A stretch of 33,069 bases of DNA from a virus: positions 1 to 33,069 of the IMG/VR virus record IMGVR_UViG_3300042896_000319; one strand, given 5' to 3'. The notes beneath the pieces were generated by a model, which saw nothing but the letters and a program-made list of their open reading frames with translations, did not search any database and was not told where the DNA came from. The number at the start of each line of letters is the position of its first letter. Position 1 is the first letter of the stretch. The position numbers and the translations under genes were made by a program. Below, piece after piece: positions 16,018 through 21,365 of the stretch.

Positions 16018-16020
16018 GAT

Positions 16021-16148
16021 AGTGAATAGGGAGCAGTGCGCCACACTGTAAATTCTTGTAAGGTATCCTCACTAAATGCTTTCTCTATCTAACCTTATTT
16101 CTCTATTCACTTCAAATAACGAAAAAGCCCCTTAAATGGGGCTTTTTT
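16021..16148 (+). ncRNA. Candidate structured small RNA (three-way junction) ending in terminator
   Basis: 16021-16033 pairs with 16099-16111 (13 bp, two G-U) to close a domain. Inside are a CAGTG/CACTG hairpin (16034-16048) and a second stem TAAGGT/ACCTTA (16059-16064 with 16092-16097, extended by a G-U), which stacks directly on the closing stem. The apical loop is CU-rich (contains TATCCTCAC and CTTTCTC). A 10-bp rho-independent terminator follows 10 nt after the closing stem. It has no open reading frame and no tRNA anticodon arm. It could instead be a structured 3' UTR of the Dps-like mRNA. Confidence 0.45.
16122..16147. terminator. Bidirectional rho-independent terminator
   Basis: AAAAAGCCCC (16122-16131), loop TTAAAT, GGGGCTTTTT (16138-16147): a perfect 10-bp stem with U-runs on both strands. 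It ends the rightward fibre/lysis transcript and the leftward 16255-16682 operon, which converge here. Confidence 0.95.
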
Positions 16149-16227
16149 ACGGCTAGGATACATTAGTATGTCTAATGGTGTTTAAATGAGTTTTAATTAT
16201 GCCCCTCTTGAGAGCCAGTATCTATGC

Positions 16228-16714: not shown

Positions 16715-16743
16715 ATTATAGCGCATAACCTATTTAATGTCAA
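16715..16743 (-). promoter_or_regulatory. Consensus sigma70 promoter (leftward)
   Basis: Minus strand: TTGACA (16743-16738), 17-nt spacer, TATAAT (16720-16715). All twelve hexamer bases match the E. coli consensus with the ideal spacer. Predicted start near 16708. It overlaps the 3' end of the GIY-YIG-like gene and drives the membrane protein and the 89-residue gene. Typical of an early promoter read by host RNA polymerase. Confidence 0.9.
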
Positions 16744-17161
16744 GCTTTTTGATATGTGAACCGTGAACTCTGACACTTATCTGTCCATTGTAGTATTCCG
16801 ATGATTCTAGCACTTTTCTGCTGAATTGCTCTCGGGCCTCAATATATGAACATTCGCTTTTGCTCATACAGAAGAAAAGAATTTCACGGGAAAAACAATC
16901 TGTTCCAAGTCGGACAATATCGGCACTTAGTTCAACTGAGGACCCATAATAAGTTACCCAATCCGAATCCACTGATGATTTTATTTTTTTCTTTTTCTTG
17001 ATTCCATTCTTTTGGGTCACAGTTCGGTAAGTTGTCTTTGCGAACTTGGACAACTTTTTACCAATGTATTTTCTGTTATTTGTTAAATTCGTTATTAAAT
17101 AGACAAAGCCAACACATTCAGGCAGTTCTGTGATGAATGAATTTTTGTATGTCCAATTCAT
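16730..17161 (-). CDS. GIY-YIG-like (Seg-type) endonuclease (143 aa)
   Basis: The N-terminus has FVYLITNLTNNRKYIGKK (residues 19-36), the GIY...YIG element as YLI...YIG. A Lys-rich insert (IKKKKKIK) and DWVTYYGSS follow, then FSREILFFCMSKSECSYIEA, with the Arg and Glu expected of the GIY-YIG core. The C-terminal VRVHGSHIKK is typical of a phage-wide family often found free-standing. The family cuts DNA near homing sites or may act in phage DNA processing. The start overlaps the upstream stop (ATGA). Leftward, between two small unknown genes. Confidence 0.75.
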   Translation of the reverse strand: MNWTYKNSFITELPECVGFVYLITNLTNNRKYIGKKLSKFAKTTYRTVTQKNGIKKKKKIKSSVDSDWVTYYGSSVELSADIVRLGTDCFSREILFFCMSKSECSYIEAREQFSRKVLESSEYYNGQISVRVHGSHIKKLDIK

Positions 17162-17454
17162 TGAGTAAGATGTAAAAATGTTTGATAAGCAATGTAAAGT
17201 TCCATAAGACGCGGGTCAGCTTCTCTTCGTTGTTTTTCCACAACACTTGTCTTTAACCTTTTCTCCATATCCAAAAAGTCATCAAGTTTCATTGTTATTT
17301 TAATCGCAGCAGTATTTTGGCTACGGTGAATCACATCCTCTATTCGAGTATCATAATGTTCCAATTGATGCATATGTGCGTGATTTGTGGCAATTCGGAT
17401 AACAATGGGTGAAGTGGTGACATTATCATAAAGTTGGTGTAATATTTGATTCAT
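17158..17454 (-). CDS. Hypothetical protein (98 aa)
   Basis: First gene of the leftward pair. Contains SPIVIRIATNHAHMHQLEHY and a charged helical C-terminal half (AAIKITMKLDDFLDMEKRLK, ...RLMELYIAYQTFLHL). No family recognised. ATAAATAGACTTATG precedes it, with the motif 5 nt from the ATG and no Shine-Dalgarno. A weak leftward TTGTTT-N17-GATAAA promoter can be drawn that would place the transcript start at the ATG. It overlaps the following GIY-YIG-like gene by 4 nt. Confidence 0.6.
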   Translation of the reverse strand: MNQILHQLYDNVTTSPIVIRIATNHAHMHQLEHYDTRIEDVIHRSQNTAAIKITMKLDDFLDMEKRLKTSVVEKQRREADPRLMELYIAYQTFLHLTQ

Positions 17455-17459
17455 AAGTC

Positions 17460-17466
17460 TATTTAT
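17460..17466 (-). promoter_or_regulatory. ATAAATA motif 5 nt before leftward ATG 17454
   Basis: Minus strand GATAAATAGACTTATG. The gap between motif and ATG is 5 nt and no Shine-Dalgarno is present. Same geometry as at 18698 and 20405 on the plus strand. Confidence 0.45.
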
Positions 17467-17469
17467 CTA

Positions 17470-17498
17470 TTGACTTTTATTCAAAAACAAATTATAAT
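17470..17498 (+). promoter_or_regulatory. Near-consensus sigma70 promoter (rightward)
   Basis: TTGACT (17470-17475), 17-nt spacer, TATAAT (17493-17498). Eleven of twelve bases match consensus. Predicted start near 17505, exactly where the structured leader of gene 17640 begins. The -10 lies within the palindrome ATTATAAT. Confidence 0.9.
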
Positions 17499-17499
17499 G

Positions 17500-17506
17500 A
17501 TAAATA
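17500..17506 (+). promoter_or_regulatory. ATAAATA motif overlapping the 17505 start region
   Basis: GATAAATAGA directly follows the sigma70 -10 box. Here the motif coincides with the predicted start rather than replacing the -10, so dual use (early host promoter plus later motif-dependent start) is possible. Confidence 0.35.
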
Positions 17507-17639
17507 GAAATGTAAGAGTTTTTCTAATAGACTTTTACATTTTGACTCCTATGTTATAGAATCCCGTTATGTGGTAATAGCGGGATTCGCCTCATACCAC
17601 GAGAAACAGGGAGCGATTCATTAACATAGGAACAATTAA
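17507..17639 (+). ncRNA. Structured mRNA leader with pseudoknot and sequestered RBS (candidate cis-regulatory RNA)
   Basis: Three elements. (1) Hairpin 17508-17519 / 17531-17542 (12 bp, one G-U). (2) Outer stem TCCTATGTTA (17547-17556) pairs perfectly with TAACATAGGA (17622-17631), which contains the AGGA Shine-Dalgarno for ATG 17640. (3) Inside it, stem GAATCCCG (17559-17566) / CGGGATTC (17581-17588) has loop bases GTGGTA (17571-17576) complementary to TACCAC (17595-17600), an H-type pseudoknot. The leader begins at a near-consensus promoter. Opening the outer stem would free the ribosome site, as in a riboswitch, thermosensor or autoregulatory operator. No known riboswitch class was recognised. 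Confidence 0.6.
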
Positions 17640-18425
17640 ATGAACACCAAATTTGACTTAGCAGCCATTACAGGCATCCCAGCACGCGACACATCCATCT
17701 ATCAAGACTTAGGCACTCCTATTTCTGCTGAAGTGTATTCTATTTCCAATCGGAAACGGAATCAGAAAGAGAAAGAGAAACTGAATACACTTCAGCAGAG
17801 CATCACCCCTTTGGGGTCTAATGTAAGTGATTTGGCGCAAGCGCCAAGTTTTGCTGCGCAAGCTGCTTCGCAGCCGGGGGTGAAAGAAGACAGAGGAATA
17901 CCGGATACCGGATACGGAAGAAAGTTGTCCCGAAATGATTTAATTGTGGATATGAATTGTCAATTGGGCAAAATCAAATCAAGCACACGAACATCACGAA
18001 TGACAGCATATTTTTCTGTTAGAACTGATAATGATGTTAGATACAAAATCTTTCTTAGATCATCCCTTACGTCATCACTTGACGAAGTAATACGCGGAAT
18101 AAAAAAGGATAACAATTTGCCATTGCTAACTATCGCCGAAGATTACATCACTCAACAAAATCAAAATGGGGATTTGATGTTGGGTAGAATTAGATACAAA
18201 GCAACAAATGGATATAATACCGATCAACATAAAACAAATTTTAAAAATGGATTATTTGCTGCATGGCCCGGACAATCTGGATTTGAGGGCGAACTCTATC
18301 TTAATGGAGATTATTATCCATTTACTTTTGATGATGAAAATATGTCTGCCGGACAGCAACAACATTATCAACAACAATCACAATGGCTAATGGATATCAA
18401 AGAAGGTGACTGTTTTTCTGATTAA
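17640..18425 (+). CDS. Hypothetical early protein (261 aa) behind structured leader
   Basis: Residues 1-30 (MNTKFDLAAITGIPARD...) are followed by a polar linker (about 31-100) encoded by a row of inverted repeats. A globular domain occupies about 100-235 (LIVDMNCQLGKIKSSTRTSR; YKIFLRSSLTSSLDEVIRGI; GFEGELYLNGDYYPFTFDDE). A Gln-rich stretch and an acidic end (MDIKEGDCFSD) follow. No family recognised. Strong early promoter, control leader and the acidic C-terminus are compatible with a nucleic-acid-binding or regulatory protein whose level is feedback-controlled, but this is inference. ATG 17640 is supported by AGGA at 17628-17631. Confidence 0.7.
   Translation: MNTKFDLAAITGIPARDTSIYQDLGTPISAEVYSISNRKRNQKEKEKLNTLQQSITPLGSNVSDLAQAPSFAAQAASQPGVKEDRGIPDTGYGRKLSRNDLIVDMNCQLGKIKSSTRTSRMTAYFSVRTDNDVRYKIFLRSSLTSSLDEVIRGIKKDNNLPLLTIAEDYITQQNQNGDLMLGRIRYKATNGYNTDQHKTNFKNGLFAAWPGQSGFEGELYLNGDYYPFTFDDENMSAGQQQHYQQQSQWLMDIKEGDCFSD
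17724..17874. repeat. Cluster of four inverted repeats inside gene 17640
   Basis: In order: a perfect 17-bp inverted repeat (17724-17740 / 17783-17799, 42-bp spacer); ACCCC-TTT-GGGGT (17805-17817); TTGGCG-CAAG-CGCCAA (17832-17847); GCTGCG/CGCAGC (17853-17858 / 17869-17874). TTTCC-AATC-GGAAA lies inside the first loop. A near-tandem ATACCGG, ATACCGG, ATACGG follows at about 17900. The encoded linker is low-complexity, so selection may act on the nucleic acid. Could be an origin, a packaging site, a protein operator or an RNA element. Confidence 0.6.
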
Positions 18426-18709: not shown

Positions 18710-19057
18710 ATGAAAACTAAAACAACTCAATCAACTCGTCATCACTGCTATGATGAAAATAATGTAAAGATTATCAAGCTTCAGTCGGGTGATATTCCAC
18801 TTGATCAATTGTCTGGACATACTCCTTGGATGAGAGGCACTGGCCCACATTCAGCACAATCACGGGAAAACATTAAAAATGCATTGAGAAACACACTTAA
18901 AGGTGTGCCCAAAACAGCAGAACAAAAAAGAAAAATGAGCATAGCTAAATTGGGCAAGCCAAAATCAGCGGAACATCGAGCAAATATGAGCGCCGCCCAT
19001 CAAAAAAGATTAGCAAGGATCCGAAATGAAAAAAGTAAAGCGTTACAGAACACCTAA
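18710..19057 (+). CDS. NUMOD3-type DNA-binding protein without nuclease domain (115 aa)
   Basis: The N-terminus (HHCYDENNVKIIKLQSGDIP...TPWMRGTGPHS) is a phage homing-nuclease-associated segment. Residues about 60-105 carry NUMOD3-like units (SRENIKNALRNTLKGVPKTA; EQKRKMSIAKLGKPKSAEHR; ANMSAAHQKRLARIR), the DNA-contacting module of GIY-YIG and HNH homing enzymes. No GIY-YIG or HNH catalytic motif is visible. It is either a remnant or a free-standing specificity or regulatory protein. The 3' end overlaps the next gene by 32 nt. The start is SD-less. Confidence 0.65.
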   Translation: MKTKTTQSTRHHCYDENNVKIIKLQSGDIPLDQLSGHTPWMRGTGPHSAQSRENIKNALRNTLKGVPKTAEQKRKMSIAKLGKPKSAEHRANMSAAHQKRLARIRNEKSKALQNT

Positions 19058-20416: not shown

Positions 20417-20764
20417 ATGACAGACGAATTGAATAACAATCAGATTAACCAACCGATCAAAAAGAAGCGAGGTGGTGTAAGAGCAAACTCCGGTCGCAAG
20501 AAAGGTTCAACTCAAAAGTTATCAGCAGCCACATTGCTCGACGCTATAGCAGCAATCGATGTACCATTTGAACAAGGCATCGCCGAAGATTATCACGCAG
20601 CAAGAATGTCAGGTGATTTAAATGTTATACAAAAATATCAGAATATGATTCTTAGTAAAGTAATTGCCGATAAACAAGCCATGGACGTTACTAGCAACGG
20701 TGAGACCATGGGTATTATTCTTAATCTATCTCCAAAGGAAACGGGCGACAATTACGATGAGTAA
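20417..20764 (+). CDS. terS: Terminase small subunit candidate
   Basis: A 115-residue protein. KKKRGGVRANSGRKKGSTQK (about 17-36) is the 'RGGxRxNSGRKxGS' basic motif at the front of many phage small terminases and related DNA-binding proteins. A helical region LSAATLLDAIAAIDVPFEQG and YHAARMSGDLNVIQKYQNMI follows. TerS recognises the packaging site and loads TerL. It sits immediately upstream of the packaging genes, with a GIY-YIG nuclease gene inserted between it and terL. The start is SD-less behind an ATAAATA motif. Confidence 0.65.
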   Translation: MTDELNNNQINQPIKKKRGGVRANSGRKKGSTQKLSAATLLDAIAAIDVPFEQGIAEDYHAARMSGDLNVIQKYQNMILSKVIADKQAMDVTSNGETMGIILNLSPKETGDNYDE

Positions 20765-21365
20765 TTCATATGTTTATAAATGGACCCATCTACCTACAAT
20801 GAAATGGTACGTTGGATCACGAACAGCCAAAGCCGCGCATATTAATGATGGATATATCTGTTCTAGTAAATTTGTTAAACCCTTGATAATCGCTAACCCA
20901 GAAGAATGGAAGAGAGAAATCATTGATACAGGTAGCAAAGAAGATATGCTGAACCTAGAAAGTGATATTCTTCAATTGTTTAATGCTGCTAAAGACCCTC
21001 GCTCATTCAATAAAAGTAATGCTGATGGTAAATTTTATGAACCCGCAACATATGGAATGCTTGGTAAAACACATTCAGATGAAACAAAGAAACGAATGAG
21101 CCTTAAGGCAATTGCTTATTGTAATGATCCTTTAGTAAAATCACATAGAAGTATCACTCGCTCAGGTGCCAATAACCCAAGTTATGGTAAACCAGGAACA
21201 ATGCTAGGTCAAAAGCATACACCTGAAGCATTACAAAAGATGATCGATTATCGAACCGGTAAGATATATGGGCCAAGAGTAAAGTCTGCTTGTATACACT
21301 GTGGTTTCTTATGCGCTCCAAATATAATGGCACGATATCACGGAGACAAGTGTGGCAAACGTTAA
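20757..21365 (+). CDS. GIY-YIG homing endonuclease (202 aa)
   Basis: Start ATG 20757 overlaps the terS stop. YVYKWTHLPTMKWYVGSRTA (residues 5-24) is the GIY...YIG core with Arg in GSRT, and NLESDIL supplies the Glu. NUMOD3-like segments follow (MLGKTHSDETKKRMSLKAIA; GQKHTPEALQKMIDYRTG). The C-terminus is a finger, CIHCGFLCAPNIMARYHGDK then C, spacing C-x2-C-x12-H-x3-C. The gene lies exactly between terS and terL and overlaps the terL start by 14 nt, as expected of a free-standing homing gene inserted next to a conserved target. Confidence 0.85.
   Translation: MSNSYVYKWTHLPTMKWYVGSRTAKAAHINDGYICSSKFVKPLIIANPEEWKREIIDTGSKEDMLNLESDILQLFNAAKDPRSFNKSNADGKFYEPATYGMLGKTHSDETKKRMSLKAIAYCNDPLVKSHRSITRSGANNPSYGKPGTMLGQKHTPEALQKMIDYRTGKIYGPRVKSACIHCGFLCAPNIMARYHGDKCGKR

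Follow-up and report, generated by a model that had tools for sequence, protein, structure and literature searches.

A candidate bistable leader RNA with kissing loops at the head of an operon in an uncultivated phage clade

The leader of gene 17640, found in a 33,069-nt stretch of viral DNA (the window), is by its sequence and synteny a member of a family of folded RNAs that had not been catalogued before. It probably acts in cis as a bistable switch of translation, placed at the start of a phage operon. Its helices, a kiss between two of its loops and two mutually exclusive pairings of one arm (P1) are supported by sequence evidence. Twenty-eight distinct leaders from the same locus of one uncultivated phage clade were analysed, and they share a common architecture with divergent sequences.

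The leader and its relatives

The RNA from 17505 to 17660 (156 nt) folds at -46.6 kcal/mol, compared with -24.8 +/- 3.6 kcal/mol for its dinucleotide shuffles (z -6.04; 0/200). Significance was expressed as a z score against 200 such shuffles. The features are listed in Table 1. The original prediction of a new cis-regulatory leader covering the ribosome site is upheld by this fold, by covariation in the family and by the lack of an Rfam match, and is refined here to a P1 arm with two partners, one of which (P1a) had been overlooked. The predicted 10-bp stem covering the Shine-Dalgarno sequence (SD), 17547-17556 with 17622-17631 and AGGA in its right arm, was found exactly as described. Two further helices exist but are longer than first stated: the 5′ hairpin (given as 12 bp) has 15 bp in the predicted fold, and the inner stem (given as 8 bp) has 12 bp. 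The complementarity of GTGGTA and TACCAC, read as an H-type pseudoknot, is present and covaries in the family. Because TACCAC sits in the loop of its own hairpin, P3, the L2-L3 contact is a loop-loop kiss of 6 bp and not a plain H-type pseudoknot.

Table 1. Features of the gene 17640 leader and its first gene (window coordinates)
Feature	Position	Strand	Basis or remark
sigma70-like promoter, TTGACT-17-bp spacer-TATAAT	17470..17498 (TTGACT 17470-17475, TATAAT 17493-17498)	+	sequence reading
GATAAATA motif, just 5′ of the P0 hairpin	17499..17506	+	TAAATA in all family leaders
P0, 5′ terminal hairpin, 15 bp in predicted fold	17507..17543 (17507-17521/17529-17543)	+	predicted fold
P1 5′ arm (anti-SD), used by both P1a and P1b	17546..17556	+	predicted fold, partner tests
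P2 hairpin, 12 bp, loop L2 GUGGUA 17571-17576	17559..17588 (17559-17570/17577-17588)	+	predicted fold, family covariation
P3 hairpin, 3 bp, loop L3 with UACCAC 17595-17600	17591..17603 (17591-17593/17601-17603)	+	covariation
P1a 3′ arm (AACAGGGAG), closes P1a-P2-P3 three-way junction, SD left free	17605..17613	+	partner-swap test
P1b 3′ arm (UAACAUAGGA), includes SD AGGA 17628-17631	17622..17631	+	predicted fold, partner-swap test
First operon gene, 261 aa, unknown family	17640..18425	+	homologues 31-37% identical behind homologous leaders

The promoter and complementary segments of the original prediction are all present, TTGACT-17-TATAAT included, but the promoter-region motif common to all homologous leaders is GATAAATA (17499-17506) and not TATAAT. 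This motif looks like the T4 late promoter TATAAATA. The same likeness was seen for the broader pattern N(A/C)TAAATA, which lies upstream of every family leader. The pattern occurs 20 times on the window + strand against ~10 expected, often 25-27 nt 5′ of an ATG, at sites including 208, 6103, 10328, 14950, 16010, 17499, 18450, 18697, 23193, 28998 and 29567. A divergent pair of GATAAATA motifs occupies 17460-17506, the leftward gene 17158-17454 having its own copy ~5 nt before its ATG.

Clade contigs were gathered by terminase searches (80 relatives taken per scan, of ~290 reported), and further leaders came from scanning by structure and by pattern. The family architecture comprises a 5′ hairpin, a P2 of 10-12 bp, a P3 of 3-6 bp and a 5′ arm able to pair with the SD region; the P2 and P3 loops are perfect complements of each other along 6 nt or more. 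Of 23 leaders, almost all fold a P0, which is weak in L070. The exact window P2 hairpin is found in three other viral contigs (L031-L033), where the leader is ~89% identical, the promoter is TTGACA-17-TATAAT and P3 has 4 bp vs 3 bp in the window. Leaders with the same element order and different sequence stand 5′ of gene 17640 homologues of 34-36% identity in L010, L013 and L016, and were also seen in L024 and L030. Homologues of gene 17640 with a leader at similar spacing were found in L010, L064, L078, L086, L016, L043, L118 and L127. The terminase lies ~2-6 kb downstream of the leader in these family loci. Eight loci with at least 5.5 kb present before the terminase (L038, L089, L157, L158, L160, L164, L178 and L189) gave no leader with the descriptor used, so the leader was not seen in all clade contigs.

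A covariance model, R1, was built from P2-P3 of 17 relatives with the window excluded; its loops are mostly UUAGCG, and the kiss cannot be modelled in it. R1 recovered the held-out L044 (E 0.002) and one new leader, L083 (E 0.0027), which proved to have the kiss, P1a and P1b. The R1 search did not recover the window leader, which is assigned to the family because of synteny, 3′ homology to L010 (79% over 48 nt, E 8e-5) and a shared element order and architecture. The window leader has P2 and P3 with an exact loop complement of at least 6 nt, and both P1a and P1b formed by one arm.

The earlier statement that no known class was recognised agrees with Rfam, which gave no match over the whole window at gathering score. 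Matches with E<=10 near the window leader were weak and all unrelated. Rfam likewise gave no match for the relatives L054, L058, L064, L043 and L079 (E up to 1), nor for L024, L030, L098 and L131. Searches of bacterial genomes returned no terminase relatives and no UUAGCG-type core, and thus no host clue for the clade. No publication on this leader family was found in the open-licence literature searched.

Kissing loops and the two partners of P1

Covariation in homologous leaders had been set beforehand as the check on the structure. Compensatory changes were found in P2, P3 and the kiss, and P1 was supported by partner swaps. In the alignment (A3; 29 columns, with the P2 base, L2, P3 and L3 blocks cut by hand and in register with the kiss), 14/14 tested pairs of P2, P3 and kiss have compensatory double changes. 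Pairing is present in 99.2% of alignment cells, and the covariation score is 0.84 vs 0.11-0.20 for slid-partner controls. Part of the leaders in A3 were discovered by requiring the kiss, so two non-circular checks were run. The first was a context-only scan (promoter motif, P2 hairpin and SD-ATG, with no kiss required), which gave a bimodal result: 26/39 candidates, some from loci supplied by the UUAGCG pattern, have a loop complement of 6-7 nt, and the rest have <=4. The second applied the same scan to 49 loci fetched later by terminase only, where all four leader-like candidates have a 6-nt kiss, one of them with a new loop pair, AUGAUA/UAUCAU.

Eleven loop sequences were seen in all. Besides that new pair they are GUGGUA/UACCAC, UGACAG/CUGUCA, UGACGG/CCGUCA, UUGCGG/CCGCAA, UAGACC/GGUCUA, UUAGCG/CGCUAA, UUGACG/CGUCAA, UUGAUG/CAUCAA, UUUGAG/CUCAAA and UUAGAG/CUCUAA. 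Few unpaired positions are conserved, mainly a single purine separating P2 from P3 (A, or in some leaders G) and, in most leaders, an A 5′ of P2. At 10-12 bp, or roughly one turn of helix, P2 is close in length to P3 and the kiss taken together (3-6 + 6 bp), as would fit two parallel helices joined on top.

The arm 5′ of P2 is complementary to the segment directly after P3 (P1a) in nearly every leader, and the same arm is complementary to the SD region (P1b) with few exceptions. In the window, P1a pairs 17546-17555 with 17605-17613 (CUCCU-A-UGUU/AACA-GGGAG; -10.9 kcal/mol), and P1b, at -13.2 kcal/mol, shares 8 arm nucleotides with it. Neither pairing played a part in finding any leader. Both were compared with partner swaps among 23 leaders, using non-overlapping windows for P1a and P1b. 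Native P1a averaged -11.8 vs -7.4 kcal/mol when swapped (z -7.9, p < 1e-4), and native P1b -10.65 vs -7.06 kcal/mol (z -8.9, p < 1e-4); these permutations ignore relatedness, and shared descent would tend to strengthen swapped pairs, not weaken them. With five later leaders added (28), z was -9.5 for P1a and -10.7 for P1b.

P1a and P1b share on average 88% of the smaller helix's paired arm nucleotides, and they cannot coexist because the same arm nucleotides are used. Their mean energies are close, and single members differ by up to ~9 kcal/mol. L054 carries GAUUGAGAA twice, after P3 and at the SD, and two strong partners of the arm also occur in each of L079, L086, L016 and L030. L098, which lacks a clear start codon, and L070 have a weak or doubtful P1b. 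In nested folding models, which leave out the kiss, P1b predominates in the window and in some members and P1a in others; the resting state is not uniform.

Three further observations concern this region. A third conformer, P1c, with an extra small hairpin presenting the anti-SD, was considered and rejected, its trend being seen in a subset only (p 0.09). The L118 and L119 leaders have a third anti-arm copy (CAUUAGGAG, UUAGGAG) between P1a and the SD, and thus three possible P1 partners. At 4140-4320 of L030, P1b covers the SD of a very short frame (ATGATGTCACAAGTTCTAAAGTAG) that lies before the real gene and possibly encodes a leader peptide.

The proposed switch would work as follows. P2 and P3 would form side by side, locked by the kiss, which probably stabilises the P1a form. 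The P1 5′ arm, carrying a CUCC(U)-like anti-SD, would pair with the segment after P3 to close a three-way junction; the SD would then be free and the gene ON. Pairing of the same arm with the SD region instead would hide the SD and turn the gene OFF, an ON/OFF assignment that we infer from SD occlusion. P1a is expected to be transcribed before P1b, so that a fresh transcript would start ON and the later SD arm could displace it. P0 probably protects the mRNA end.

Downstream genes and possible triggers

The leader heads a rightward gene block ahead of the terminase. The 261-aa product of gene 17640 has a predicted beta-rich domain, with a low-confidence N-terminal third, and structure comparison matched only other uncharacterised phage proteins. 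No direct relatives of the gene or its DNA were found in GenBank phages or by a single-protein scan of viral contigs. In the three contigs with the exact P2, a 471-aa protein (Walker-A-like GCGLGKT) replaces the 261-aa gene from the ATG on, and flanking genes are conserved. First genes across the family comprise the 261-aa family, the 471-aa protein, a 56-aa protein, a 105-aa family, a 517-606-aa family, a DUF5710 protein (L131) and single cases in L024 and L070; PrimPol and DUF5906 genes come next in some loci. The leader thus persists although its first gene can come from any of about eight unrelated families, and this variation makes it a property of the operon and not of one gene. Genes resembling homing endonucleases (SegE GIY-YIG; phrog_314) lie nearby at 16730-17161 (-), 18710-19057 (+) and 20664-21365 (+), and such neighbours may explain the gene swaps. 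Within the 5′ part of gene 17640, 17725-17880 holds many perfect hairpins, ~17 bp (CUGCUGAAGUGUAUUC/GAAUACACUUCAGCAG) and then several mini-hairpins of 5-8 bp (fold z -4.5). Its orthologues have other mini-hairpins at similar places (UUC, AGA and UAC loops), and this is possibly a second RNA element.

For the trigger, kinetic control or an RNA-binding protein is more likely than a metabolite. The P1a/P1b balance would be set by kinetics or some factor and not by a classical metabolite pocket; an elaborate ligand pocket is disfavoured because few unpaired positions are conserved. Phages often regulate through RNA-binding proteins at leaders, and RNase III is reportedly involved in control of lambda cIII. 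Here, tentatively, the P1a/P1b balance could be shifted by RNase III or by an RNA-binding protein of host or phage origin, on recognition of P2/P3 or P0. The long helices P0 and P2 suit protein binding and conserved purines flank P2, but helix and loop sequences vary so widely that only shape recognition is plausible, and no candidate protein emerged.

A phage riboswitch class in which the kissing-locked junction senses a signal of the infected cell, and strand exchange decides translation of the first gene, whatever that gene is, seems rather doubtful. Sensing of a small molecule that stabilises P1a, with the junction serving as aptamer in the manner of the purine and lysine riboswitches, is unlikely. 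The junction, loop-loop lock and strand-exchange expression platform are riboswitch-like, and the six kissing pairs of the lysine riboswitch are also essential and poorly conserved in sequence (PMC3764141). Set against this are the near absence of conserved unpaired nucleotides, the lack of a common metabolic theme in downstream genes and the lack of an Rfam match.

Temperature, named as a trigger in the original prediction, is improbable. Lambda cIII does have two mutually exclusive temperature-dependent conformers (PMC4166951), and an RNA thermometer here would move the P1a/P1b balance in the same way. The predicted P1a form gives way to P1b on warming in L078, L016, L043 and L107, but the window, L044, L054, L066, L024 and L131 are modelled as mainly P1b from 10 to 45 °C and L058, L077 and L079 stay P1a; folding models thus show no consistent trend across members. 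We give as little credence to a view in which SD pairing is secondary and the element chiefly affects transcription, as a put-like antiterminator, or the stability of the operon RNA, as a stabiliser of its 5′ end. The element does lie at the operon's extreme 5′ end and persists when the first gene is exchanged, but the P1 arm covaries with each gene's SD region, which such a role would not need.

Control by the gene 17640 product or by a small RNA candidate at 16021, both suggested originally, is very improbable, since gene 17640 does lie directly 3′ of the leader but leaders of this kind stand before about eight first genes that are unrelated to one another, and the duplex of the small RNA with the leader is ordinary, ~32-37% of random window pieces doing as well. 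The 16018-16152 region is itself a structured RNA candidate (z -6.3) with an intrinsic terminator, right after a GATAAATA motif. In L032-L033 it is conserved at 94.5% identity, and a small hairpin in it is compensated; blastn found none in the other clade loci searched.

Significance and comparison with known systems

The family adds a well-supported structured RNA to phage mRNA leaders, where described regulatory RNAs are few. It unites a kissing lock of 6 bp with a compact three-way junction and an SD platform based on strand exchange, at a constant genomic position while the controlled gene is replaced. Its two-partner arm gives simple, separate predictions for P1a, P1b and the kiss. The kiss differs among members, which makes the family well suited to working out the rules of kissing loops. 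The question of what would be sensed by a phage at this stage of its programme becomes one that can be answered.

The core motifs known for twister, pistol, hammerhead, preQ1 and glutamine RNAs are absent by eye, and scoring was by Rfam alone. Translational riboswitch platforms with strand exchange are alike in that one arm is common to the junction helix and the SD-sequestering helix, but the leader here is without a conserved core. The purine (guanine/adenine) riboswitch shares a P1-P2-P3 three-way junction, parallel P2 and P3 held by loop-loop contact, and P1 strand exchange. The leader differs in its continuous, variable 6-bp kiss and its unequal arms (P2 10-12 bp, P3 3-6 bp), and has no conserved junction core. 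As a candidate identity this class was rejected: the conserved purine-binding nucleotides of junction and loops are missing, the loops are fully variable Watson-Crick kisses, and Rfam gave no match.

The lysine riboswitch has a 6-bp L2-L3 kissing interaction that is essential yet poorly conserved in sequence (PMC3764141), and the kiss of the leader is alike in both length and variability. Its five-way junction with a kink-turn and L4-P2 contact contrasts with the three-way junction here. This class was also rejected, the five-helix junction being missing, with only P1, P2 and P3 round the junction, and Rfam again giving no match. Lambda cIII mRNA adopts two mutually exclusive conformers, of which one exposes the ribosome-binding site and the other partly occludes it (PMC4166951). 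The leader is alike as a phage mRNA with two exclusive pairings, one occluding the SD, as found by the partner swaps. No sequence relation to lambda cIII was seen, and the leader here has a conserved, kissing-locked three-way junction that is modular to the gene.
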